Of a DNA stretch of 64,000 nt, positions 9,909 to 55,804 are shown one piece after another (position 1 is the stretch's first letter; every line of letters begins with the position of its first letter). The notes beneath the pieces were generated by a model, which was not told the DNA's origin, ran no database searches, and worked only from the letters and a program-made list of their open reading frames with translations. The translations under genes and the position numbers were made by a program. Source of the stretch: an uncultured Spiribacter sp. (lineage in GTDB: Bacteria > Pseudomonadota > Gammaproteobacteria > Nitrococcales > Nitrococcaceae). The stretch is taken from the NCBI GenBank assembly GCA_937884605.1, contig CALGDM010000013.1:1-64000 (forward strand). Reading direction: 5' to 3'.

Positions 9909-12038
9909 TCAAGACACGGGGAATCGAGGTCCCGGTCCCAGCGGTTGCTGCCGGTCCGGGTCACGCGGGGTATGGGTGAGCGCGCTCAGCAGGGCGCGGA
10001 GCAGTTCATCGCGCTGTTGCATCAATGACTGCCAGCGCTCCGGTGACGGTTGGTGTGTCGCGTTGAGACAACGCAGCGCCTCATTGTGGATCGAACGGTG
10101 GAGGTCGCGGATACGGATGAGCGCGGATCGCCGCTCGCGATCGACGGGCGTCAGGGATGCCTCGGAGACTGGCTTGATGTTGGCATCCAGCCACTGCTGC
10201 AATGCTTGCTCCGCGCCCCATGCCGGCGGCACGGATTGATTCTGATAGAGGGCGTGCTCGACCTGACCGAGCCACTGCGAATAGGCGACAAGGGCGAACA
10301 CTGCGGGCATGTCGGCCGGTGTGACCGGCGCCATGGAGCGCCACTGCGCGGGGGGAGTCCATTGAGTCAGCCAGTCCACGAGGGCGGATGCTGGCATGGG
10401 CGGTGCAATGCCAAAACCCTGGGCGCGCTCGCAGCCAAGCGCGAGCAGCATTGTGCCGTGATCGAGCGTCTCGACGCCCTCGGCAATGGTCTGGCGAGCC
10501 AGTTTGCGGGCCAGGCTCTGGACACCATCGAGAATCGCCAGGTCATCGGGGTCATCGAGCATGTCACCGACAAACGTCCGATCAATCTTTAACTGCGGCG
10601 CGGGCAGATTCTTGAGGTAATTGAGGGTCGCGTAGCCGGTGCCGAAGTCATCCAGTGAGAATCCGATCCCCAGCCGCCGGCACGCGTCGATCACGGATCT
10701 GACTCGGGCGATATCGTCCAGGGCGCTGCTCTCGAGGACTTCCAGCTCGAGGTCGCCGGGTTGCAGGGTGGGATGCCGGGCCAGGCAGCGCTCGAGCTTA
10801 TCGATGAAGTCGGGTTGGGCGATCTGATAGCCATCGACATTAATGCTGACGGGCAGGGCATAGCCCTGCTCGCGCCACGCCACCACTTGCCGGGCGGCCG
10901 TCTCGAGCACCCAGTCACCGACTTCGACGCTTACTGGTGTGGCCTCGAGGGCGGGCAGGAAATCACCGGGCGGGAGCAGACCGTGGTCGGGATGCTGCCA
11001 GCGGATTAACGCCTCGGCGCCGATGACCCGGCCATCCGGTAGATGGACCTTGGGTTGGTAGTGCAGTGTGAATTCACGCCGGCCCAATGCTTGACGAACG
11101 GCGTCAATGGTCTCGTTCTGATCGCGCACCGCCGAGTCGTGGTCGGGGTCAAAGATCGCAATCCGGTTTTTGCCCGCCTGTTTGGCGGCGTACATGGCAT
11201 GGTCGGCCTGACGGATAAGCTGCTCCGCCTCGAGCGCCGCGGCCTGGGGGTAGAGCGCCAGCCCAATGCTGGCGGACGGTACGTTCGTCCGAGGCCGGCG
11301 AGCGGCTGAGCGCAGCGGCGCGCGATGGGCGCTGGCAATACGCCGCCGGGCCTCCTCGACATCGCGGACACCCTCGATGACAACGACAAACTCATCGCCG
11401 CCGACACGTGCCAGCATGTCGTCATCGCGCAGCGCGGTGGCAATGCGCCGGGCAATGCCGGCGAGGATCCGGTCACTCCGAGCAAAGCCATGGGTGTCAT
11501 TGACGGATTTGAAGTCATCGAGATCGATGTACGCGACGGCGAGCTGCTTGTCGGTCCCGTGATGACGATTCATGGCATGGCCGAGTGCTTCATTGAGCCG
11601 TAGCCGGTTTGGCAACCCCGTCAGCGGATCGTAGAGCGCGAGATGCTCGAGGCGCTGTTTGTCACGCGCCTGTTCGGTAATGTCAGTGACCGTCGTCGCT
11701 TTGTAGCGGCGTCCGTTGGGTAGAACGACGCGCGCGGCGGTGACCCAGACCTCACGCAGGGCGCCGTCCTTGCGAACGACCTGCCATTGCCCGGCGCTCT
11801 CGTTGCCACCCCGCAGGAAGGCATCGTGGATGCGCTCGGCGGCCGCCCGTCGATCAGCGGGCAAGACGACGGTGAAGGGCTTGCCGATCAGTTCGTCGGC
11901 GGTGTAGCCGTAGGTCTCGCAGTAGGCCTGATTAACCTTGACAAAGCGACGCTGCTCGTCGGTAACGCAGATACCGACGTCGGCGGAGTGATACACCGCC
12001 TCGAGTAGCGCGGATTCGTCCGATGCGTTCAGCCCCAT
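9909..12038 (-). CDS. PAS-GGDEF-EAL protein with an additional C-terminal helical domain
   Basis: PAS (VGICVTDEQRRFVKVNQAYCETYGYTADELIGKPF), ARVGGDEFVVVIEG, GAEALIRWQHP; start MGLNASDES. Confidence 0.9.
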   Translation of the reverse strand: MGLNASDESALLEAVYHSADVGICVTDEQRRFVKVNQAYCETYGYTADELIGKPFTVVLPADRRAAAERIHDAFLRGGNESAGQWQVVRKDGALREVWVTAARVVLPNGRRYKATTVTDITEQARDKQRLEHLALYDPLTGLPNRLRLNEALGHAMNRHHGTDKQLAVAYIDLDDFKSVNDTHGFARSDRILAGIARRIATALRDDDMLARVGGDEFVVVIEGVRDVEEARRRIASAHRAPLRSAARRPRTNVPSASIGLALYPQAAALEAEQLIRQADHAMYAAKQAGKNRIAIFDPDHDSAVRDQNETIDAVRQALGRREFTLHYQPKVHLPDGRVIGAEALIRWQHPDHGLLPPGDFLPALEATPVSVEVGDWVLETAARQVVAWREQGYALPVSINVDGYQIAQPDFIDKLERCLARHPTLQPGDLELEVLESSALDDIARVRSVIDACRRLGIGFSLDDFGTGYATLNYLKNLPAPQLKIDRTFVGDMLDDPDDLAILDGVQSLARKLARQTIAEGVETLDHGTMLLALGCERAQGFGIAPPMPASALVDWLTQWTPPAQWRSMAPVTPADMPAVFALVAYSQWLGQVEHALYQNQSVPPAWGAEQALQQWLDANIKPVSEASLTPVDRERRSALIRIRDLHRSIHNEALRCLNATHQPSPERWQSLMQQRDELLRALLSALTHTPRDPDRQQPLGPGPRFPVS

Positions 12039-43756: not shown

Positions 43757-44215
43757 ATGACCGACCTATCGGCGCTCTACCAGGCCGTGGTGCTTGACCA
43801 CAACCGCGCCCCACGCAACTGTCATGCGGTCTCACCCCATGACTACGAAGGCGATGGCAACAATCCATTGTGTGGCGACTGGGTGCATGTCGAGCTTCGA
43901 CTGGACTCGGCGGGTCGTATCGAGGATGTCGGTTTCAGCGGAGAGGGTTGTGCCATCTCGACGGCATCGGCGTCGATCATGACCGAAGTGTTGATGGGGC
44001 GCACACTTGATGAGGCGCGTCGGATCGGCGAACGCTTCCAGCACCTGGTGACCGATCGGGACGCGCCGCTGCCGGCGGAAGATGACCCCGAGCTCGAAAA
44101 ACTCCTGGCATTGGCCGGCGTGCGTGACTACCCCATGCGGGTGAAGTGCGCCACCCTTGCCTGGCATACCCTGCAGGCGGCGATCGAGCCGACTGCCTCG
44201 GCGGATTCGGAGTAG
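43757..44215 (+). CDS. sufU: SufU-type Fe-S assembly / sulfur transfer protein
   Basis: NPLCGDWV, GEGCAISTASASIM, VKCATLAWHTL; conserved Cys-Asp-Cys-Cys set. Confidence 0.93.
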   Translation: MTDLSALYQAVVLDHNRAPRNCHAVSPHDYEGDGNNPLCGDWVHVELRLDSAGRIEDVGFSGEGCAISTASASIMTEVLMGRTLDEARRIGERFQHLVTDRDAPLPAEDDPELEKLLALAGVRDYPMRVKCATLAWHTLQAAIEPTASADSE

Positions 44216-44218
44216 CGC

Positions 44219-44542
44219 ATGGTGGAACGCCCCCCGGTCGATACACTGCGCGAAGGCGTGGTCAGCGCCCTTCGCAGTGTCTATGACCCTGAAATCCCTG
44301 TGGATGTCTACGAGCTGGGCCTGATCTACGAGATTGAAGTGGATGCGGACGGCTTCGTCGACGTGCTGATGACGCTGACTTCGCCCGCCTGCCCGGTGGC
44401 CGGTCAGATGCCGATCATGATCAAGGCCGCGGTGGAACAGGTCCAGGGCGTTGAGGCCGCCGAGGTGGAGCTGACCTGGGATCCGCCGTGGACGCAGGAC
44501 CGGATGTCCGAAAGCGCGCGCCTGCAGCTGGGGTTCATGTAG
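44219..44542 (+). CDS. SufT-like MIP18 (DUF59) family protein
   Basis: LRSVYDPEIPVDVYELGLIYEIEV; MTLTSPACPVAGQMP. Confidence 0.92.
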   Translation: MVERPPVDTLREGVVSALRSVYDPEIPVDVYELGLIYEIEVDADGFVDVLMTLTSPACPVAGQMPIMIKAAVEQVQGVEAAEVELTWDPPWTQDRMSESARLQLGFM

Positions 44543-46184
44543 GCCCGTCGGCCGGCTGAAAAAGGCCTGGATCCACTGGCGGCTCGAGGGTCGATCCCTG
44601 TTCGATGAATGCCGGCCGCTGCCCGGTGGCGGTAAAGCCGTTGTCATAGCGGTACAGATCGGTCAGCAGGATCCGCTCGCCTTCCATACCCGCGACTTCG
44701 GTGATCGCCGTGATCCGTCGTGCCCCATCGCCAAAGCGCGTCAGCTGCACAATGATATCGATGGCCGCTGCGATCTGGTCACGAATCGCCCGCGCCGGCA
44801 GGTCCATTCCCGCCATCAATGTCATCACCTCGAGTCGGGCGAGGGCATCGCGGGGTGTATTGGCGTGGGCCGTGGTCAGGGATCCGTCATGCCCGGTATT
44901 CATCGCCTGGAGCATATCCAGCGCTTCGCCGCCGCGGCATTCCCCCACAAGGATGCGATCGGGGCGCATGCGCAGTGCATTGCGAACCAGTTCGCGAATG
45001 CTGATCGCACCACTGCCCTCAACGTTGGCCGGACGCGACTCCAGGGCCACCACGTGATCCTGCTGCAGACGCAGCTCGGCGGAGTCTTCAATGGTAACGA
45101 TCCGCTCGGACTCGTCGATTTCCTCCGACAGGGCATTCAGGACCGTTGTCTTGCCCGTGCCGGTGCCGCCGGCGATGAGGATATTACGACGGCGATGGAT
45201 GCACAGGCGCAGGAACGCCGCCATGGGGGCATCCAGGGCCCCGAATCCGATCAGATCGCCAAGCCCGATGCGTGTGTCACTGAATCGCCGGATGGTGAGC
45301 GTGGCGCCATTGAGCGCCAGCGGCGGGATGATCGCGTTGACCCGTGAGCCGTCGGGCAGCCGTGCGTCCACGAGCGGCGAGCCTTCATCAAGGCGCCGGC
45401 CGAGGGGCGAGACGATCCGGTCAAGCACGCTATCCAGGGACGCCGCCGAGCTGAATGCCAGTGCGGTCTTCTCCAATCGTCCCTGGCGCTCGACATAGAT
45501 GCTTGACGGGCCGTTGACCATGATTTCGCTGACCGCGGCGTCTTCCATGAGCGACTCGATGGGCCCGAGGCCCACGGTTTCAGCGACCACGGCAGCCACC
45601 ACGGTATTGCCGTCAAGGTCCTCGGGGATCGACAGCTCGCCTTCCTCGATCAGCTGCCAGGCCGTGGTGCGGGCTTCTTCGCGCAGTCGCTGGGGCGATA
45701 GGGTCTGGAGGATATCCCGCCGATACAGATCCAGACGCTGGCTGATGCATTCCTGAAACCGACGTACCAGTTCCGGGGCAATGCGCGGCGTGGCCGCCGG
45801 GATCGGTGGCTCCGCCGGCGCGGCCGGTGCGACAGGTGTGACAGGGTCGGGATCGGGCGCCGAGGGGACGGGCGTCTCGGCCGTGTCGACCGGCCGGACC
45901 TGCCAGCAGGTGTCGCCCAGGCGCAGCGCATCGCCGGCGGCGAGGGGGCCGGCCTGGCGGACCGGCTCGCCGTTGAAGTCGATTTCGCGCCGACCGGTCA
46001 GCAGGCGGATGTGCAGCCCATCGGTGTCCACGCGGAACTCGGCATGGCGCCGGGCGATTCCCTCACCGGCAATCCGCAGATCACAGCGACGCCCGCCACC
46101 AATGGTGTATCGACGCCCCGGATCCAGGGCAATGGGGATCGGGCGCTCATGACCACGGTGCTGGAGGAGTTCGAGCTTATTCAT
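44535..46184 (-). CDS. FHA domain - CpaF/TadA-type secretion ATPase fusion
   Basis: N-terminal FHA pattern (YTIGGGRRCDLRI...ARRHAEF...NGEPV...LAAGDALRLG); C-terminal GGTGTGKTTVLNAL and GECRGGEALDMLQAMNTGHDGSLTTAHANTPRDALARLE. Confidence 0.93.
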   Translation of the reverse strand: MNKLELLQHRGHERPIPIALDPGRRYTIGGGRRCDLRIAGEGIARRHAEFRVDTDGLHIRLLTGRREIDFNGEPVRQAGPLAAGDALRLGDTCWQVRPVDTAETPVPSAPDPDPVTPVAPAAPAEPPIPAATPRIAPELVRRFQECISQRLDLYRRDILQTLSPQRLREEARTTAWQLIEEGELSIPEDLDGNTVVAAVVAETVGLGPIESLMEDAAVSEIMVNGPSSIYVERQGRLEKTALAFSSAASLDSVLDRIVSPLGRRLDEGSPLVDARLPDGSRVNAIIPPLALNGATLTIRRFSDTRIGLGDLIGFGALDAPMAAFLRLCIHRRRNILIAGGTGTGKTTVLNALSEEIDESERIVTIEDSAELRLQQDHVVALESRPANVEGSGAISIRELVRNALRMRPDRILVGECRGGEALDMLQAMNTGHDGSLTTAHANTPRDALARLEVMTLMAGMDLPARAIRDQIAAAIDIIVQLTRFGDGARRITAITEVAGMEGERILLTDLYRYDNGFTATGQRPAFIEQGSTLEPPVDPGLFQPADGPT

Positions 46185-47463
46185 AACGGATCTCCCGAAG
46201 CGGCAAGCGCGGGACGGGGGCTGAGCGGGTCGGATCGGCCCGTTCCGGGGTGGTGGCCGCCGGATCGTCCTGCAGTGTGGGGGTGATGAGCACCACGAGC
46301 TCGGTCTGTTCGTTCTGGAACCGCTCGGAGCGAAAAAGCCGACCGATCACCGGCAGCTCGCCGAGGCCGGGCACCCGACTGACCGCACGGGATTGCTGCT
46401 CGTCGATGAGACCGGCAATCAGCAGCGTCTGCCCGCTCGGTCCGCTCATTTCGGTGATGGCGTTGCGGACCGAAAAGCCGGGTACGCCGAGTACCGTGAC
46501 AGACTCGTCGACATCGCTGACTTCCACCTCGATGCGGGTGCGGATATGGGCATCATCGCCCACCACCGGCGCCACCTTGAGCAGTATCCCGTAGTCCTTG
46601 AAGGTCACCGTCGGGTCGCCCTCGCCGTTCTGTATGGGGATCGGGACTTCACCGCCGGCCTGGAACTCGGCGGCAGTCCCGCTCAGGGCCGAGAGCATGG
46701 GCTCAGCGATCACCCGGGCCTCGCCGGACTGGCCAAGCAGGTCGATCATCGCGGTCAGGCTGAGGCCCACGCCCAGATAGCCATTGCCCTTGCCGATATC
46801 CAGGGGCAACGACTGATTGGGCAGAAAATCACCAAGCGCACCGCGAAAGACATCGTTGGTCTCGAGATCGGCAGCGTAGGCAAAGCTGATCGCGGGGGAC
46901 TGCGTCGTCCAGTCAAGACCGATCTCGCGCAGGGTCGAGGTGCGCAGTTCCACGAACCGGGCCTTGACCTGAACGCTTGGCGTGTCGCGGGCGGTTGCCG
47001 GATCGGTGAAGTCGCCCAGCTCCGGATAGGCTTCCACCAGGCGCTCGAAGCGAGCCTGATCACGATCCGTTGTGGGGTGCCCGGTGACGAAGTACTCGGC
47101 GTTGATGCGCTCGAGACGAATCCCGTCAACACGCCTGGCCAATTGCTCGAGCTGGCGGTCGCGCGGCGTGTCCGCGGAGGGCTGGACCGTAACGGCGAGA
47201 TGCCTGGGGCTGGCGCCTTCGGACCAGATGCGCAGATCGGTCTGCCCGGCGGCCCGGCCCATTAAGAGGATGCCATCGTCGTTGTCGAGCACCTCGACTT
47301 CGGCCAGTTCGCCGTCGCCGAGCGCGACGCGGACCACATTGCTTGCATCGATGATCTGCGAGTGTCCGACATCCACCGTGACGGCGGCGGCGGGCAGCCC
47401 GAGCATCAGCCCAAGCGCCGCGCCCATTGGTTGGTACCAGTGCCCGGTGCGGCGCCCAGTCAT
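46177..47463 (-). CDS. CpaC/RcpA-type pilus secretin
   Basis: Pilus-secretin N domain and secretin C-terminus (EVSDVDESVTVLGVPGFSVRNAITEM...LPVIGRLFRSERFQNEQTELVVLITP). Confidence 0.93.
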   Translation of the reverse strand: MTGRRTGHWYQPMGAALGLMLGLPAAAVTVDVGHSQIIDASNVVRVALGDGELAEVEVLDNDDGILLMGRAAGQTDLRIWSEGASPRHLAVTVQPSADTPRDRQLEQLARRVDGIRLERINAEYFVTGHPTTDRDQARFERLVEAYPELGDFTDPATARDTPSVQVKARFVELRTSTLREIGLDWTTQSPAISFAYAADLETNDVFRGALGDFLPNQSLPLDIGKGNGYLGVGLSLTAMIDLLGQSGEARVIAEPMLSALSGTAAEFQAGGEVPIPIQNGEGDPTVTFKDYGILLKVAPVVGDDAHIRTRIEVEVSDVDESVTVLGVPGFSVRNAITEMSGPSGQTLLIAGLIDEQQSRAVSRVPGLGELPVIGRLFRSERFQNEQTELVVLITPTLQDDPAATTPERADPTRSAPVPRLPLREIRYE

Positions 47464-48242
47464 GGCTCACCCCCGATAATCAGCTCGACCGCGGGTGGCG
47501 TGTCACCGGATGGAGCATGGGTGATTGCCGCGGTGTCGATGCGATAGCCATCCACCGGTGCATTATCCCGGTCAGCGCGCAGGACGACGTGGATGCTGCC
47601 AATGGCAACGGCCTGGGTGATCCGCGCGGCCTCCACCGGTGAGACGGCCAGAGTCAGGTCGTCATAGCCGGGTTGTCGGGTATTGTCCCGCGGGACGGCA
47701 AGTCGCGCGCCGGTGGCGAGGATGGGTATATCCGCCAGCAACGGCAGCGTGGTGCGTTCGCCGTCGTCGCGGTGGGTGAGCAGCAGATCCACACGGTCCC
47801 CGGGACTCAGCAGCCCGGCAATCTCGGCGCCGCCGGACACCGGAATGGTGATGGCCCGGTCGCCGGGCGTGATCTGATCGGCAAGCCGCGCGCGGTCCGA
47901 ATCGGTGACATGCACCGGCAGGATTGCGCGGCCCGCGCTCAGATCGTGGGTCAGGGTCCGCCCCGCGATGCGCGCCCAGGCGCTGTCGGCAAAGGCATGC
48001 TCATGGACAAAACGCACGGGCATCTCACGCACGGCGACGCGATCCGGTGTCAGGCGGCTGCCTTTGGGCAGATCGGCGCCGGCGACGATCACTGCACGGG
48101 TGGCGTGCGTCGAGCGCAGTTCCGCTTCGACAGCCCGGGCGCGTTGCTCGAGATGCCGATCGCCAAACCAGACACCGGCGCCACCGGCCAGCAATGCCCC
48201 GGTGACCAGCAATACACCGCGTTTCAGGGGAGTCATCATCAT
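47460..48242 (-). CDS. CpaB/RcpC-type Flp pilus assembly protein
   Basis: SAF-like domain (AVIVAGADLPKGSRLTPDRVAVREMP; RAITIPVSGGAEIAGLLSPGDRVDLLLTH); SD GGAGAAGG upstream of ATG at 48242; ORF extends to 48278. Confidence 0.87.
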   Translation of the reverse strand: MMMTPLKRGVLLVTGALLAGGAGVWFGDRHLEQRARAVEAELRSTHATRAVIVAGADLPKGSRLTPDRVAVREMPVRFVHEHAFADSAWARIAGRTLTHDLSAGRAILPVHVTDSDRARLADQITPGDRAITIPVSGGAEIAGLLSPGDRVDLLLTHRDDGERTTLPLLADIPILATGARLAVPRDNTRQPGYDDLTLAVSPVEAARITQAVAIGSIHVVLRADRDNAPVDGYRIDTAAITHAPSGDTPPAVELIIGGEP

Positions 48243-48261
48243 CGCCTTCTCCGGGGGCAGT

Positions 48262-48390
48262 TCATAACGGGATGGCAAGGCTCCAAAGCGTCTGGTCGGT
48301 GTGGCTGGCGAAGGCCGTGATCAGCCGATCGATGCCGGACCAGACCCCCATCAGCCCCGCAATCACCGCCAGGTACTCGGCGCTGCTCAT
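48262..48390 (-). CDS. Uncalled 42-aa hydrophobic small ORF in the Tad locus
   Basis: Manual translation MSSAEYLAVIAGLMGVWSGIDRLITAFASHTDQTLWSLAIPL*; start shares an A with the upstream stop (TGATG). Confidence 0.55.
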   Translation of the reverse strand: MSSAEYLAVIAGLMGVWSGIDRLITAFASHTDQTLWSLAIPL

Positions 48391-49148
48391 CACCTGCCCC
48401 CTGGTATGACGCGCTGCGCGAGTAGCAGAGTCCTGCCGGAGTGGCGCAGCAGTTCCGCTTCGAGGGCCTCGCCGTCGCGATGCAGCAGCAGGCGTTGACG
48501 GTCGGCGGTGCTCGGGCGGTCGATAGCCGCGGATTGCCAGCCAGCGGCTTCGAGCGTTTGAGTCAGGGCCCTGGCGGCCGCCGCGAGGGCCAGCGGGGTG
48601 TGGGCGTGGACGGAAGCGCCGGCGGCATTGCGACTCTGGAACTCGATCTCAAACCCGGCCGGCAGGGGCAGATAGGGTTCGGGAGGTGGCGAGTCGGCGG
48701 TATCGAGCGGCATCAGGCTGATCATCACGGCATGCCCCGCGCCAGTGGGCTTGACGGCCAGGCGCCGTGAGAAGCGGTCGCTGGCCTGCCAGAGCGTGTC
48801 GTCGCGTCCGTCACCGTCGGAGTCCTCGGCCTGCAGGACGCCGGGATGAGCCTGCCACTGCCGACTGTAGAGGGTGAGCAGGGCCGCGAGGTCGGCGCCG
48901 CTGCGGTAGGCGAGTGTGCACATCGGCAGTCCGCCGATCATGACGCGTGCATCGCGCAGTACCTCGATGGCATCAGCGGGGGTCCCCAGACTGTCCAGCT
49001 CGTCGCCGCAGGCATTGCGGGCGTTCACCGCCGGCGTCAGCAGCAGGCTGGAAAGCACGCTGACCCAGAGCCAACGGGGTCGCCAGCGCCGGTCAGCGAC
49101 GCCGGGGCAAACGTGCCGAGGGGGGAACGAAATCGGTGGCTTTGGCAT
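48390..49148 (-). CDS. Hypothetical exported protein, Tad locus
   Basis: Signal-like WLWVSVLSSLLLTPAVNA followed by a soluble region; start uncertain (overlaps the upstream gene). Confidence 0.65.
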   Translation of the reverse strand: MPKPPISFPPRHVCPGVADRRWRPRWLWVSVLSSLLLTPAVNARNACGDELDSLGTPADAIEVLRDARVMIGGLPMCTLAYRSGADLAALLTLYSRQWQAHPGVLQAEDSDGDGRDDTLWQASDRFSRRLAVKPTGAGHAVMISLMPLDTADSPPPEPYLPLPAGFEIEFQSRNAAGASVHAHTPLALAAAARALTQTLEAAGWQSAAIDRPSTADRQRLLLHRDGEALEAELLRHSGRTLLLAQRVIPGGR

Positions 49149-49845
49149 CGCGTCCTTCCTTGAAGACAAAAAATCGGCCGAGGATCTGAGCCGGTGTCGA
49201 GAGCGCATCAACGGGTTCACTGGCAACGATCTGCTGCATACGCCGCTCATACTCGGCGTCTGTGGTGGCCTGCCAGGTGCGCGTCGAGAGGCCGCCCGCG
49301 GCAGTCAGTGTCAGCGGCGGACGGTTCTCGCCCGCCTCCAGACGCGGTTGTGCCCGAACGCGGATGCGATCACCGCGCAGACCGCTGCGCTTGAGGTCGA
49401 GCATGGCTTTGGAGAGTCCGACAAAAGACGCAATCGATGGCATTGAGTCGCCATGGGCAAGGCCTCGCACGGCGCGACCGGCTGCCGGCAGGCGGGCGAG
49501 ATCTCCGTCGGGGGGTGTCGACCGCTGCCGGTTGTCGGCGACGCGTAGTGCACCCGTCGGATCCTGCCACAGCGGATTGCGGCTCGGCCCCGCGCGCCTG
49601 AGCTGGTCCACAGCCACCAGAGGCGCGTGGTCATTGCCGAACACGCGATCCTCGATCGCCAGCTGGCGTCTGGCGTCGCTGGTGTTGCCGGCAAGGCTCT
49701 GCCAGGCGGCATAGCGGGCGGCGGCCGTGGTGCTGCGGTCCATGTCGGCAAGCCGCCCCAGATAGTCCATTGCCACAAACGCCGGGATCAGCGCCAGCAG
49801 GCCGACCAGCGACTCGGTGATCGCGCTTCCCGCCTGCCGGTTCAT
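49093..49845 (-). CDS. TadE-like pseudopilin family protein
   Basis: MNRQAGSAITESLVGLLALIPAFVAMDYLGRLADM pilin-like N-terminus; position in locus. Confidence 0.7.
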   Translation of the reverse strand: MNRQAGSAITESLVGLLALIPAFVAMDYLGRLADMDRSTTAAARYAAWQSLAGNTSDARRQLAIEDRVFGNDHAPLVAVDQLRRAGPSRNPLWQDPTGALRVADNRQRSTPPDGDLARLPAAGRAVRGLAHGDSMPSIASFVGLSKAMLDLKRSGLRGDRIRVRAQPRLEAGENRPPLTLTAAGGLSTRTWQATTDAEYERRMQQIVASEPVDALSTPAQILGRFFVFKEGRDAKATDFVPPSARLPRRR

Positions 49846-51068
49846 GGCAGTCCCGGTGCCTCGAGACCGCTCAACGAGGCCTCCCAGTAGGGGTTGAAAA
49901 GCGTGGCGGGGTCCTGCCGGCTGGGGCAGTGCCGACCGCAGTCGTCGGGGACGCGGTAGCGCACCTCGCCGATGCTTATGTGTGCATTGATCGCTTCGCG
50001 GTCGTTTCGTCCGGGCAGCGCGGCGGTCACCAGCGCGGGAATGCGGATCAGGCTTTTGTCCCGCGGCGGCTGACGAAGCCGTGTGTAGCGGGCGACGCCG
50101 ACGTAGTTGCCGGCCAGCCGATCGGCATCGGCATCGCCACGGGCCAGGGTCGACCATGACTCCCAGCTCATTTTGCGCCAGTCGAAAAAGCTGACCTGCA
50201 GACGATCCCCCGAGCGCCAGCCACCGGCATCGGTGCGGGGTGGCTGCTGGGTCACGCCCTGCTTGCGAAAGCGCACGATCCTGAAAAGTGAACGGTCCCA
50301 GTCCCGGGCCCCCCGACCGAAGCGCGGTCCCCCGGACTGGGCGGGCCCCCGAAGCCAGCGGCTCAAGCGTCGGTCGTGATTGATGGTGGATCGCAGTACC
50401 CGCTGAAAGTAGCCACCGTCCCGTCCCGGCGTGACGCCCTCGAGTTTGAAGAATGCCGAGACCTGTCGGCTGAGCAGGCGCGCTTCCATCGCGGTGGCAT
50501 AGGGGTCGGGCATGGCCTCGATGGCGCGGCGCTCGTTGACCTTGAAATCGTCTCCGTAGCGCAGCGCGACACGTTGCATGACTGCGTCAACCCGCGCCGG
50601 CCGCAGCGCATTGCGCGCGCCGTACTGAGCCAGTGAAAGTAGATCCATGTAGCGGTCGGCGCTGACGATGTAACCGCGGGCGGCCGTTGATGCGGTCTTG
50701 ATCGCGGCATCGACGAGTCGTTGGGCCTCGCGGGTGGCCACACCGACGTAGGGCAGAAACTGAGCGTAACGGGCGATCTGGCGGGCCGCCTCGCCGGTGT
50801 AGCGCAACCAGCTGATGGTGGCCACCAGATGACCGACGGCGATATGGCTCGCGATCAGGCTGCGATTGGTATAAGCGATCAGATTGAGTCGTCGAGCGGT
50901 CCAGCTGGCACCGCTGTAGGCAGCGGCATCGGCGGCATTGACCACCGCCGATTCCTGCCCGATGCCGCGGATCGACCGGTGCGTGAGCACGATCGCCGCG
51001 GCGGCCAGCGCCAGAGTGGCCAGAACCACCGGCAGGATCTGGCCGCATTGCCGATCAGTTCTGCTCAT
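49842..51068 (-). CDS. TadG-like pilus assembly protein
   Basis: GQILPVVLATLALAAAAIVLTHRS...VVNAADAAAYSGASWTARRLN. Confidence 0.75.
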   Translation of the reverse strand: MSRTDRQCGQILPVVLATLALAAAAIVLTHRSIRGIGQESAVVNAADAAAYSGASWTARRLNLIAYTNRSLIASHIAVGHLVATISWLRYTGEAARQIARYAQFLPYVGVATREAQRLVDAAIKTASTAARGYIVSADRYMDLLSLAQYGARNALRPARVDAVMQRVALRYGDDFKVNERRAIEAMPDPYATAMEARLLSRQVSAFFKLEGVTPGRDGGYFQRVLRSTINHDRRLSRWLRGPAQSGGPRFGRGARDWDRSLFRIVRFRKQGVTQQPPRTDAGGWRSGDRLQVSFFDWRKMSWESWSTLARGDADADRLAGNYVGVARYTRLRQPPRDKSLIRIPALVTAALPGRNDREAINAHISIGEVRYRVPDDCGRHCPSRQDPATLFNPYWEASLSGLEAPGLP

Positions 51069-51348
51069 TGAAATTCTGCAGCGTGTCTTCCTGGCCGGCC
51101 CGATCTGCGGCGCGTTGCGAATTGTTGTCGGCCTGATCGACCTGGTCACTGCCGTCCTGACCGGCCATTTCCCGGGCCATGGCGGCGGCCTGGCTGGAAA
51201 TGGTGTCGCCGAATGCCGAGAAAATGCCGATACCGGCCACGGCGATGAGCGCGGTGATGATGATGTACTCCGACATCCCCTGACCGCGTTGGCGGTGAGT
51301 GGGGCGGGTGAGATGCGGGGCTTTCGGATGCGGGCGTTGGATGAGCAT
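51055..51348 (-). CDS. Flp-like type IVb pilin with extended hydrophilic tail
   Basis: RG|QGMSEYIIITALIAVAGIGIFSAF fits G-x4-E-Y prepilin motif; SD AAGGAGG before ATG. Confidence 0.8.
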   Translation of the reverse strand: MLIQRPHPKAPHLTRPTHRQRGQGMSEYIIITALIAVAGIGIFSAFGDTISSQAAAMAREMAGQDGSDQVDQADNNSQRAADRAGQEDTLQNFNEQN

Positions 51349-51403
51349 GGCGCCTCCTTGACTGGGCGTTGAACAGGCCGTGTGGAGATCAGCCTAGGAA
51401 CAA

Positions 51404-53239
51404 TCAGTCATGCCGCGAAGTACCGCCGGTCGGGGGGAGTCGCTGGGCGGCCGAGCGGCAGCGTTGCGGGCGTCGAACGGTGGCAAGCCAGTGGATCCCG
51501 GGTGCATCCACAGCGACGCGGGCGTCGCCCGCGTCGCTGCCAGGGAAGGCGAGGGGTGGCTCACCCGGCAACCACCGGATCGCGCGAAGGCCCTGGGCGG
51601 TGCGCTGCAAACCATAGGCCGGCGGCTGCATGGCGCTTACCGGCCCGTCCATTGCCATTAGCCCGGTCTGCTCGCAGAGCCAGACCAGCGCCTCGTCGCG
51701 GCCTGCCGGGACGGCATTGGCACCGTAGGCCAGACCGTAGGCCTCGCTGAGCCGGGCAATGGCCACACGGTGTGGGGCATCCCGCTCGAGTGCTCTGTCG
51801 AAGGCAGGATCGGGCGGCGTTGACTCAGGCCTCGGCGACGGGGCGTTGAGTCCGACGATGAGGGCGCCGGTGGCCAGCGCGATCACAATTGCGCTGGCAG
51901 CGGAGTGACCGGTGGCCGGTTGCACCCGCCGGCGCCCGAGTGTGATCAGTGCCAGCCAACCGCCACCAAGACCCGCGGTGATCAGCCCCGGGGCTGCCTC
52001 GCTGGCTGCTGGCCGGACCGGCAGAGGCAGCGTGACCACCGCTTGAACGCCCGCCGGCGCAAGGCGGCGTTGGCGGCCGTCCGGATGCAACAAAACGCTG
52101 GGTCCGCCGTGGGCAACGACCAGGACGGGGATGCCGGCGCGCGCGGCCTGTAGATGCACGCTGCGCCGATGCAGCCCTGGGAGCCTTCCGGATCGCCACG
52201 CCGGCAGACGGGCGGGATTGACGATCAGTCGCGGGTCATGGACCGCAGCCCGGTCGACGGCCCGGGGGTGCGCAGCGTCCGAGCAGATCAGCACCTCGAG
52301 GGCTGCCAGCCCGTTTTCGCCGGGCTTGGCGCCGGCGCTGAGGGCGGATTCGGCGTACGGCAGGGGAAAGACCTTGGTCCAGCCCCCGCGCGCGTCGCTG
52401 CTCGCCTCCTTGCCGGGTCTGATCGGGACCTCACTGCGAAGCCGCCCGGGTGCGTGATAGCGGTAGCCATGCCGTAGGTGGATCATGCCGCCGGGCGGTC
52501 TTTGCCAGGGCGGAGGCAGCAGGACGGGGGAGGCCGCTTCGGGCCAGACCACCCAGCGTGCCTCCACATCGGCAAGCGCGGCATGGGCGAGCAGGGTCGA
52601 TGTGGCGGCGCGTCGGTCAAGGGTCTGGACAACGGCAAGGCGCGGCGAGTCGGGCAGCGCTTTCGGCAGCGGGTTGGAAGCGATGAGCGAAAGCGGCACC
52701 ACACTCAGCGCAATTCCCAGCGGCGCGATCCAGTCGCGATGCCGGAACGGGCGTGTTGCCGCCATCAATGCAACAGCGAGCCCCGTCTGCCACAAGCCAA
52801 TGGCGCCATCCGCGGCGATGACGCCGGCGCCGTCGATCAGGCCGAACGGCACAACGGATGGCGGGACGAAAAGACTCAGCGAGGCGGGAATTCCCATGCT
52901 TCGCAGCCCCGCAAGCAGGCCGACCAACCCGATCATCGTGCCCGCGAGCCGTCTCGAACCGGTGCCGCCATGGCGATCCGCGGCGAGCCAGGCCGCCAGA
53001 CCGAACACGCCGAGAACGGCCAGGATCACCAGCATCGCGAGGGCGGGTTCGCGGCCTGCAACGGGGCCCAAAGCCACCCCCAATGGCAGTCCCAGGGCAA
53101 TCAGCGTATTGATCAATCGCGCGCGCTGCGGCTGGCGCATGCCCATCAGCCAGGGGACAAGCCAGAGTCCGCCGGCGGCTGCGAATCCCGCCGGTGGCAG
53201 TGCGGCCACTGCGAGCAGCCCGGCGAGCAGTCCGGTCAT
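51404..53239 (-). CDS. Apolipoprotein N-acyltransferase (Lnt)-like membrane nitrilase with extra C-terminal domain
   Basis: Multi-TM N-terminus; WPEAA (Glu), TKVFPLPYAE (Lys, Glu), LEVLICSD (Cys); LQAARAGIPVLVVAHGGPSVLLHPDGR; ~140 aa C-terminal extension. Confidence 0.82.
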   Translation of the reverse strand: MTGLLAGLLAVAALPPAGFAAAGGLWLVPWLMGMRQPQRARLINTLIALGLPLGVALGPVAGREPALAMLVILAVLGVFGLAAWLAADRHGGTGSRRLAGTMIGLVGLLAGLRSMGIPASLSLFVPPSVVPFGLIDGAGVIAADGAIGLWQTGLAVALMAATRPFRHRDWIAPLGIALSVVPLSLIASNPLPKALPDSPRLAVVQTLDRRAATSTLLAHAALADVEARWVVWPEAASPVLLPPPWQRPPGGMIHLRHGYRYHAPGRLRSEVPIRPGKEASSDARGGWTKVFPLPYAESALSAGAKPGENGLAALEVLICSDAAHPRAVDRAAVHDPRLIVNPARLPAWRSGRLPGLHRRSVHLQAARAGIPVLVVAHGGPSVLLHPDGRQRRLAPAGVQAVVTLPLPVRPAASEAAPGLITAGLGGGWLALITLGRRRVQPATGHSAASAIVIALATGALIVGLNAPSPRPESTPPDPAFDRALERDAPHRVAIARLSEAYGLAYGANAVPAGRDEALVWLCEQTGLMAMDGPVSAMQPPAYGLQRTAQGLRAIRWLPGEPPLAFPGSDAGDARVAVDAPGIHWLATVRRPQRCRSAAQRLPPTGGTSRHD

Positions 53240-53246
53240 TATCGAC

Positions 53247-53702
53247 TCATTCCCGGGGTGGCGATGCCTTGCCAAGCGCGTCAATTGCCCGGCGCAGATC
53301 AACCAGTCCCGGCTGGCCGGCGCTGACGGGGGCCAGTCGCTCGTGCTGATCGAGCAGAAGGCGGGCTTGCTGGAGGTGGACGATGGCCAGGTTGTAGGTG
53401 GCAAGGACATGACCCGGGTCACGGGCGAGGGCGGCCTCAAAGTGCTCGATGGCCGCGTTGGGATCGGCCGCGCCGTAGGCGATCAATCCAAGCTGGAAAT
53501 AGGGTGATACGAGCTCCGGGGACTGCTCGATGACCGACTCGTAGCCACGCCGTGCCCGCTCGAGATCGCCGCGCTCAAGGGCGGTATCGGCCCGGGCGAG
53601 GCGCTCGATGACCGATGGCGCATTATGGGTCGGCATGGCCACACAGCCTTGAAGCATGGCGGCGAGTGCCACCAGTCGGACCGAAGCCGTAAAGCGACTC
53701 AT
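53247..53702 (-). CDS. TPR lipoprotein (TadD-like)
   Basis: Signal peptide with lipobox LQGC; TPR-like repeats (GDLERARRGYESVIEQSPELVSPYFQLGLIAYGAADPNAAIEHFEAALARDPGHVLATYNLAIVH). Confidence 0.83.
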   Translation of the reverse strand: MSRFTASVRLVALAAMLQGCVAMPTHNAPSVIERLARADTALERGDLERARRGYESVIEQSPELVSPYFQLGLIAYGAADPNAAIEHFEAALARDPGHVLATYNLAIVHLQQARLLLDQHERLAPVSAGQPGLVDLRRAIDALGKASPPRE

Positions 53703-54073
53703 GGGTAATCCTTGTTGCAGTAGAAACGCTGGCCGATCAGGTTGGGCGGCAGCGATTGCGCGGCCATCTCGAGGGTGGCACGGGTGCCTCTGGGGGCCGG
53801 TACCCAGCGCCCCGGTGGCACCCGCGAAGACACCTTCAATACGGTAAGCTCGCGATCGAGCTGGACAACATCGATGGCAAAGCGCATGCCAAGGGTGTGC
53901 ACGCCGCCCCGTGCGATCAGCAGCAGGCCGCCGTCGGTGACGGGCGGATGCGATCGCCCCAGCAGGCCGATCAGGCGCGACATGAACCGGTCGGCGACAT
54001 CGACACGAATGCGCAGCGGACCGCCCGGTTCAGGCATGAAAAGGCAGGTGGGCACGGTGCCGCCGCGGCTCAT
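53699..54073 (-). CDS. DUF192 family protein
   Basis: VADRFMSRLIGLLGRS...GGLLLIARGGVHTLGMRFAIDVVQLD. Confidence 0.87.
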   Translation of the reverse strand: MSRGGTVPTCLFMPEPGGPLRIRVDVADRFMSRLIGLLGRSHPPVTDGGLLLIARGGVHTLGMRFAIDVVQLDRELTVLKVSSRVPPGRWVPAPRGTRATLEMAAQSLPPNLIGQRFYCNKDYP

Positions 54074-54963
54074 AACAGACCGCCGTCCATGAACTGCAGC
54101 ACGATCGGGAAACCGATGATCAGAAACGTCACCGGGAAGAGCAGCCCCACCAGAGGGGCGAGCATTTTGACCGGCGCTTCGTTGGCCTTTTTCTCGGCGG
54201 CGGCAAATCGCTCGCGCCGGCGCTGCGCGGCCTGATCACTGAGCGTCTGGCTGATCGCAGCGCCGGTTTCCTCAGCCTGGGCGATGGCTGCCACAAACCC
54301 ATGCACCGCGCTCAGGTCCACCCGTCGGGCCATGCGCTCGAGCGCCTCGAGGCGTGGGACACCGGTGCGTGTGTCGCGGTCGATGCGCTGCATTTCCGCT
54401 CGCAGCGGCCCCGGTTCAAGGTGTTGGGTGCATTGTGGCAGTGCCGCACTGAAACTCAGTCCGGCCCGCACCGAAAGCCCCAACAGCTCGAGCAGGGCAG
54501 GGAACTGCCGGGCGATCAGGCGCTGCCGACGCTGCCCATGATCGCGAAGCCAGATCGCCGGATACGCGTAGCCCAGCAGCAAACCGGCGAGCACCGCCCT
54601 TGCTCCGCCCGCGTCGACCGAACTGAGCACAGGCTGCAGAACGACCGCGGCGAATGCGGCGAGCAGGGCCGTGAGACCCCGCAGCACCATCCACTCGCCC
54701 GGCAGCACCGCATAACCCATGCCGGCGCGATCGAGCCGGGCCGCCAGGTCCCGGGGCGAGAACCACTGCGCCGGATCCACTTCGGCGTGAATCAGTCGGG
54801 CCAGCGGCAGCAGCAGCCGAAACAGCCGGGGTGAGGGATCACGCCAGCGATCAACCCGCGGCCCGCGGCGCACCCGGGCGAGCTCGGCGATGCCGACCGC
54901 GCCGCTTGCCGCGGTGAGTCCCAGCAGGCTGACCGACCAGAGCGCGCCTGCTTCAGACATCAA
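54070..54963 (-). CDS. TadC-like type II secretion F family protein
   Basis: T2SSF-like core (LLELLGLSVRAGLSFSAAL...RRRERFAAAEKKANEAPVKMLAPLVGLLFPVTFLIIGFPIV). Confidence 0.9.
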   Translation of the reverse strand: MMSEAGALWSVSLLGLTAASGAVGIAELARVRRGPRVDRWRDPSPRLFRLLLPLARLIHAEVDPAQWFSPRDLAARLDRAGMGYAVLPGEWMVLRGLTALLAAFAAVVLQPVLSSVDAGGARAVLAGLLLGYAYPAIWLRDHGQRRQRLIARQFPALLELLGLSVRAGLSFSAALPQCTQHLEPGPLRAEMQRIDRDTRTGVPRLEALERMARRVDLSAVHGFVAAIAQAEETGAAISQTLSDQAAQRRRERFAAAEKKANEAPVKMLAPLVGLLFPVTFLIIGFPIVLQFMDGGLL

Positions 54964-55804
54964 TGGCGACCACCCGGCGGATCCAGACCACCGCCAGCGA
55001 CATGGCCACCGCCACGATGGCGATCACCGCCCAGCCAAGGGGCTCGGTGAACAGTCGCGCCATCATTGCGGGCTGCTGGAGGTAGAGCATGCCACCAATG
55101 CCGAAGGGCAGTACCATCATCACTCGCCCCTGCATCCGCCCCATGGCGGTCAGTGCCGTGATGCGCTCTTCAACCTGAGCGCGCTCGCGCAGCGTTTCAG
55201 CCAGCGTATCGAGGGTATGCGCCAGATCGCCGCCCACCCGGTGCGAGATCATGATCGCGTTGCGGAAAAGCGCTGTTTCCTCGGACGGCACGCGCCCGGC
55301 AAATCCGCCGAGCACGGTCTCGAGTTCTTCGCCCAGGCGCTGGCGGCTTAGCATCAGGCCGAACTCCTGGCTGAGTGGCGCCGGTTGTCGGCGCGAGACA
55401 AGCTCCATGGCGCGACCGATGTTGGTGCCGGCACGAAGCGAGCTGGCCAGGGTCTGCAGGGCATCGGGCAGTTGGCGGATAATGGCCTTGCGGCGGCGCT
55501 CGCGGATGGTGCGAACGCCAATCCGCGGCAGCGCCAGCCCGGTCAACCCGGCGGCCGCAGCCAATGGCCAGGGCAGCAGTAATCCGGTGATAGCGGCCAG
55601 TACCAGTCCCAGCCCCAGGGCGATCTGCAGGAGCCGTCGCGCGGGCAGATCGATGAACTGCGCGCGCAGGTCATCCTGCGCGGTGGTCCGGATATGCGAT
55701 CGATAGCGCTGGATGGCGGGGCCAAGGCCGCCCACCACTGCCACAAAGGCAAGGCTCGCGGCCAGACAGAGTCCGATGAGAGCAGGCAGCGCGGAAGACA
55801 TCAT
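54953..55804 (-). CDS. TadB-like type II secretion F family protein
   Basis: T2SSF-like core (LPDALQTLASSLRAGTNIGRAMELV...LRERAQVEERITALTAMGRMQGRVMMVLPFGIG). Confidence 0.9.
   Translation of the reverse strand: MMSSALPALIGLCLAASLAFVAVVGGLGPAIQRYRSHIRTTAQDDLRAQFIDLPARRLLQIALGLGLVLAAITGLLLPWPLAAAAGLTGLALPRIGVRTIRERRRKAIIRQLPDALQTLASSLRAGTNIGRAMELVSRRQPAPLSQEFGLMLSRQRLGEELETVLGGFAGRVPSEETALFRNAIMISHRVGGDLAHTLDTLAETLRERAQVEERITALTAMGRMQGRVMMVLPFGIGGMLYLQQPAMMARLFTEPLGWAVIAIVAVAMSLAVVWIRRVVAIDV

Follow-up and report, generated by a model that had tools for sequence, protein, structure and literature searches.

The window analysed here is a stretch of 64,000 nucleotides from an uncultured Spiribacter sp. 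(GenBank assembly GCA_937884605.1, contig CALGDM010000013.1, positions 1 to 64,000), and it carries a Tad/Flp pilus locus that is transcribed on the minus strand from position 55804 to position 44535. This locus is composed of 13 genes, all present and uninterrupted in the window, in the order tadB, tadC, a DUF192 gene, a gene for a TadD-like TPR lipoprotein, an Lnt-like gene, flp, a tadG-like and a tadE-like gene, a gene for an exported protein, an open reading frame (ORF) of 42 amino acids (aa), cpaB, cpaC and FHA-cpaF, TadB being encoded first and CpaF last. Each gene ends with a stop codon and none contains an internal one. The spacing between neighbours ranges from -56 to +55 nucleotides (nt), mostly overlaps of 4-14 nt, and this tight packing, from a 56 nt overlap to a 55 nt gap, led to regarding the 13 genes as one operon. 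An earlier note on this DNA had counted twelve or thirteen consecutive minus-strand Tad genes; there are exactly 13, and its list of genes is right, far beyond chance. A 271-aa ORF on the same strand (43832-44647) was judged spurious, as it overlaps sufU and the end of cpaF and matches no family. Throughout the genus, the tad genes were found in the same order, flanked by gshA and sufU, the Lnt-like gene being missing from the loci of two genomes (G004 and G012); on three fragmentary contigs (L053, L054 and L071), the whole locus with both flanks is not visible.

Most of the features that define a Tad system are found in the operon. TadB (54953..55804; T2SSF, 1.3e-16), conserved in the genus loci, and TadC (54070..54960; T2SSF, 7e-18) are the two inner-membrane platform proteins, each with a single T2SSF domain. 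They are accompanied by CpaB/RcpC (47460..48242; TIGR03177, 3.7e-45), by the CpaC/RcpA secretin with its pilus N-terminal domain (46177..47463; PF00263, 1.8e-40, and PF13629, 2e-12) and by a motor ATPase of the CpaF/TadA family (44535..46184; PF00437 or T2SSE, 8e-64). The motor possesses an N-terminal FHA domain (PF00498, 5e-8) that is joined to CpaF by a linker. Such proteins form the published class III of CpaF, found mostly in Betaproteobacteria, for example the Achromobacter CpaF E3HIW0 (PMC12019362). TadZ/CpaE is absent, and the locus is therefore classed as a Tad sublineage that lacks TadZ, distinct from canonical Tad loci. One PilD-type A24 prepilin peptidase is encoded outside the locus and probably acts on the Tad pilins.

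The major Flp-like prepilin (51055..51348) has a leader ending in RQRG|QGMSEY, where the bar marks the cleavage site, and this small pilin shows G|QGMSEY, of the G|xxxxEY type, in 13/13 loci read. The TadG-like minor pilin (49842..51068) starts with MSRTDRQCG|QILPVV and the TadE-like one (49093..49845) with MNRQAG|SAITES. These three proteins have no significant match in Pfam or NCBIfam, including the Flp models, the TadG-like protein being marginal in Pfam, and their identities rest on prepilin motif, position and synteny. The mature Flp-like pilin ends with an acidic tail, and its conservation across the genus greatly exceeds that of most other proteins of the operon. In one complete genome (G006; L057, reverse-complement position 11612), the TadE-like protein has no leader and starts with MSATSETVIGMLVLVPAF (MSATSETVIG...), at an ATG that overlaps the stop codon of tadG.

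The most unusual part of the locus is the 42-aa ORF at 48262..48390 (MSSAEYLAVIAGLMGVWSGIDRLITAFASHTDQTLWSLAIPL), which the earlier note had only listed without recognising its nature. It measures exactly 42 aa in the 13 genus loci read and is present in one copy in each of the 14 genus genomes. It is also under purifying selection, since dN (nonsynonymous divergence) is lower than dS (synonymous divergence), or dS is saturated, in 78 of 78 pairs. Single copy, constant length and purifying selection make it a real gene. A hidden Markov model was built from the genus sequences and run on 16,851 six-frame ORFs of the FHA loci outside the genus. The eight best matches were small pilins located directly upstream of cpaB (2.5e-7 to 0.08), while noise started with the next match at 1.1 and the best match of a reversed-sequence control was at 2. 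The leader-bearing orthologue of locus L206, for instance, reads MRRRKQRG|GTTAEYLLVAAAIFVAWSVVAKVKTGLTNHQAEYTWSISQPNI, to be compared with MSSAEYLAVIAGLMGVWSGIDRLITAFASHTDQTLWSLAIPL in the window. Four residues, E5, Y6, W17 and P41, are invariant in the 19 aligned sequences of the ORF and its orthologues, and the alignment is nearly ungapped through the C-terminal end; E5 is counted from the initiator Met, the genus ORF starting at mature residue 1. Outside the genus, the pilin upstream of CpaB bears a leader in all 35 matched slots, with Gly at position -1 in 34 of them and Ala in one, that of L087, the sole matched locus of this kind. In three loci (L205, L207 and L209), the pilin in this position has His, not Glu, at mature position 5 (RG|AALAHYLVA). 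On the contrary, no leader was found in the 13 genus loci read. Gly never precedes the Met, and seven genomes have an in-frame stop at most 12 codons upstream, hence the leader has been lost; the hydrophobic N-terminal helix with Glu5 has been kept. The 42-aa ORF is thus an orthologue of the small pilin upstream of CpaB, with its start codon at mature position 1.

A tentative proposal, to which we give a little less than an even chance, is that this genus-wide orthologue of a minor pilin is translated directly in its mature form and joins Tad assembly, probably as a tip adapter, without a peptidase, in parallel with the exchange of CpaE for a module fused to the motor in the FHA-CpaF lineage. 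Entry into the filament is favoured because E5 is retained, a Glu that a plain anchor would not need. Several points weigh against the overall model of the locus, of which this adapter is a part. The second residue is Ser or Thr, and removal of Met by methionine aminopeptidase may shift the Glu to position 4. Compared with a leader-bearing orthologue, the hydrophobic stretch is weaker (Kyte-Doolittle 1.96 versus 2.40 for residues 7-18), and the protein may have quit the filament and now help CpaB or TadB/C as an assembly factor. As for the exclusion between FHA and CpaE described below, it comes from 1 to 4 independent contrasts, which puts significance out of reach.

The protein could instead no longer be a pilin: it would then be a small single-span inner-membrane protein, for example a constituent of the CpaB collar or of the TadB/TadC platform, that has kept only the ancestral sequence pattern. 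The loss of the leader and of Gly at position -1, the proximity of cpaB (a gap of 19 nt) and the weaker hydrophobic stretch all fit with this view. It is nevertheless considered less likely, as E5 is invariant in the 13 loci read, which is needless for a mere membrane anchor, and as the nearly ungapped match to the leader-bearing orthologues reaches the C-terminal end.

The adapter role is proposed by analogy. KilK and KilO of Myxococcus are small Flp proteins that serve as adapters: they link the tip made of minor pilins to the filament, and priming depends on them (PMC12075869). In the same way, the 42-aa protein, the best candidate for this role in the genus locus, would be a KilK-like tip-adapter pilin that bypasses the prepilin peptidase: it probably starts mature, joins the tip formed by TadG and TadE to the Flp filament and gets assembly started. 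KilF of Myxococcus also possesses an N-terminal FHA domain, and the Kil system relies on adapter Flp pilins and on a peptidase that is not dedicated to it (PMC8460266, PMC12075869). Kil and the genus locus are alike in the FHA-fused motor, in the presence of additional small Flp proteins next to the major pilin and in the non-dedicated peptidase proposed for the latter. By these likenesses, the locus could be a Kil-like machine for contact-dependent killing, in which FHA would couple it to a phosphorylation cascade, but this is improbable. In Kil, the adapters have leaders and cleavage sites, the clusters are split, TadG and TadD are reported missing and prey is killed (PMC12075869, PMC8460266); a short secretin without N0 and many FHA proteins also belong to that type. 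In the genus locus, TadG-like and TadD-like proteins are encoded in one operon, together with a single FHA protein and a secretin that has the pilus N-terminal domain, and no effector gene was seen in it. Moreover, the phosphothreonine site of FHA is mostly degenerate in the genus, 10 of 13 members having lost the Arg and 12 of 13 the Ser, and classical phosphothreonine binding is therefore unlikely in most of them. Phosphothreonine signalling via FHA was also considered in its own right and is weakened by these lost residues.

It could also be thought that the 42-aa ORF gains a leader through a frameshift from the gene of the exported protein, which in the window shares one nucleotide with its start, or through a non-canonical start. 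The upstream stops in seven genomes, the lack of any readable leader ending in Gly in 13 loci and the unconserved upstream in-frame sequence make this very improbable.

The earlier note had found neither CpaE/TadZ nor TadV in the window. Searches of the window bear this out, and the whole-genome search that it called for was carried out on the window genome (1.80 Mb, 30 contigs, 91% complete) and on its relatives. PF16968 (TadZ_N) was discarded as a probe for CpaE since it gave no match in control genomes, and a profile built from canonical Tad loci was used instead. In four genomes of the same order that carry canonical Tad loci, this profile retrieved CpaE with E-values of 1e-56 to 1e-161, whereas in 14/14 genus genomes, including that of the window, it found only generic MinD/ParA proteins (best 4e-16, matching from profile position ~112 on) and no CpaE. 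A single A24 prepilin peptidase, of the PilD type, is encoded in the window genome, on another contig than the tad locus. Most near-complete genomes of the genus have exactly one such peptidase and two genomes (G005 and G009) have two, and no A24 peptidase was found in the tad locus among the genus genomes searched. The presence of PilB/PilC, of PilT and of an MSHA-like pilus locus that includes several minor pilins in the genome (G000: C5, C10, C15) indicates that PilD has other clients. Tad detection models permit tadV to be encoded away from the locus (PMC6668835). That TadV and CpaE lie in the unassembled parts of a genome still incomplete in 30 contigs is the least probable of all the alternatives, since both are equally absent from near-complete and single-contig genomes of the genus and since the second A24 peptidase of G005 and G009 likewise lies outside the tad locus.

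The same gene set recurs elsewhere, as a type of surface pilus that is widespread but has received little study. Among 132 loci in which CpaF could be read, 65 have FHA on the motor and 67 do not; CpaE was present in 0/65 of the former versus 58/67 of the latter. TadV/PilD was not detectable in any of the 65 FHA loci, a weak test in that only 13/67 non-FHA loci were positive, and whole-genome counts therefore weigh more. Of 30 FHA-type genomes searched whole, 28 have no CpaE, and in the two others (G096 and G136) it adjoins a second CpaF that lacks FHA. Exactly one A24 peptidase was counted in 23 of 28 FHA-type genomes and none was found in three, a second one being limited to G096 and G136, on the same contigs as the non-FHA CpaF and CpaE. 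The absence of CpaE and TadV is thus a rule for FHA-CpaF Tad loci. Canonical Tad loci, of the Aggregatibacter, Pseudomonas or Caulobacter type, are arranged as flp-tadV-rcpCA-tadZABCDEFG. The genus locus has in common with them CpaB, CpaC, CpaF, TadB, TadC, TadD, TadE/G-like proteins and an Flp with a class-III leader, and differs by the lack of TadZ/CpaE and TadV, by FHA on the motor and by pilins that fall outside the Pfam Flp model.

Class III was defined by the motor only, and CpaE is not mentioned in the defining paper (PMC12019362). The comparison of FHA-CpaF neighbourhoods, another check that the earlier note had proposed, showed that the gene set is a recurrent subtype from which the genus departs in gene order and in the Lnt-like gene. 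Outside the genus, the genes usually run flp, tadG, tadE, exported protein, small pilin, cpaB, cpaC, FHA-cpaF, tadB, tadC, DUF192 and tadD. The class III loci read from Beta- and Gammaproteobacteria share with the genus the motor made of FHA, linker and ATPase and the surrounding gene set. They have the platform block last, no Lnt-like gene and a leader on the pilin upstream of CpaB, whereas in the genus the block (tadB-tadC-DUF192-tadD) stands at the front, the Lnt-like gene is added at the joint and the pilin is leaderless. These three traits, and nothing else, are specific to the genus. The idea of a divergent pilus or a lineage-specific secretion variant has therefore to be split: the locus belongs to a divergent Tad lineage, but it is no single-locus oddity, because many Gamma- and Betaproteobacteria possess this gene set, again with neither CpaE nor TadV, and nothing in the evidence from the locus points to a secretion function rather than a pilus. 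No earlier report of CpaE loss in FHA-type Tad systems, of DUF192 with pili or of leaderless pilins was found in a literature search whose scope left out most subscription journals.

In a tree of the motor domain, 55 of 59 FHA proteins group together with a support (SH-aLRT) of 90, which is not decisive. In the best tree, their sister group consists of five CpaFs of 716-753 aa from Bdellovibrionota/Deltaproteobacteria (L097, L098, L144, L147 and L153), in which a CpaE-type ParA domain is fused to the motor N-terminus. This domain scores 96-127 bits on the CpaE profile versus 28-55 for MinD, ParA and Mrp proteins, so that the same position holds FHA in one branch and CpaE in the other. On few independent contrasts, this suggests an exchange of modules at the motor N-terminus. 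The naive table of FHA against CpaE is extreme and no significance is claimed for it; with only 1 to 4 independent contrasts, the replacement of CpaE by FHA is a lineage correlation, in which FHA may have taken over a recruiting or positioning job.

Two other genes of the operon belong to the FHA-CpaF gene set. DUF192 (COG1430; 53699..54073; PF02643, 4.2e-8) is typical of the subtype, with 49/65 FHA-CpaF loci, and the TPR lipoprotein (53247..53702; TPR families to 4e-9, lipobox LQGC) is the canonical TadD, which is probably a pilotin by analogy with TadD of P. aeruginosa (PMC10499894). The exported protein (48390..49148) belongs to a family that is kept across the FHA-Tad subtype, with homologues in 38 other loci. 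It matches no Pfam or NCBIfam family, and its predicted fold (pLDDT 83.5), made of two similar alpha/beta halves, has no match in PDB below an E-value of 0.01.

The Lnt-like enzyme (51404..53239) is a true addition of the genus. On its own, this protein has no significant Pfam match and only a weak one to TIGR00546 (1e-4, 21 bits for a cut-off of 132.9 bits), and for this reason it is filed as Lnt-like and not as Lnt. Its triad E234-K289-C319, part of a nitrilase domain that sits on a multi-span membrane domain, is invariant in 10/10 homologues, of which eight match CN_hydrolase (best 3e-9), and Foldseek aligns its low-confidence model (mean pLDDT 62) with Lnt structures at 8e-11. It shares with Lnt (PDB 5n6m, 6nwr, 8aq2) the membrane nitrilase fold, the E-K-C triad and the WPE motif, and differs from it by an identity of 14-17% in the structural alignment, by an extra C-terminal domain and by its absence from G004 and G012. 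As a separate housekeeping Lnt (~320 bits) is encoded in every genus genome, the enzyme is a paralogue of Lnt with an intact triad. A dedicated acyltransferase, for instance for the neighbouring TadD, is suggested. The extra domain (about residues 490-600; 51404-51760 of the window) has conserved WLC, PA-GL and CR motifs, and family searches gave it no identity.

Altogether, the locus probably holds the complete gene set for a type IVc (Tad/Flp) pilus of the FHA-CpaF lineage, with a shared PilD, a CpaE-free motor and a leaderless 42-aa adapter pilin. The single FHA-CpaF motor and the TadB/TadC platform would assemble the acidic Flp-like pilin into a thin pilus, which would extend through the CpaC secretin and the CpaB collar with TadD as pilotin. 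Flp, TadG and TadE (except in G006) keep class-III leaders that are probably cut by the sole PilD, shared with the type IVa and MSHA pili. CpaE is dispensable in the FHA lineage, the N-terminal module of the motor, FHA here and the CpaE domain in the sister group, probably serving for positioning or recruitment. The CpaE-CpaF fusions of the sister group thereby offer a concrete hypothesis for how a Tad motor may be positioned without TadZ. Cleavage of the leader by a prepilin peptidase is regarded as a requirement for pilins and minor pilins to join type IV filaments, as has been stated for minor pilins (PMC12075869). A leaderless orthologue under selection makes this requirement testable, namely whether cleavage would be needed for extraction as such or only for providing the right N-terminus.

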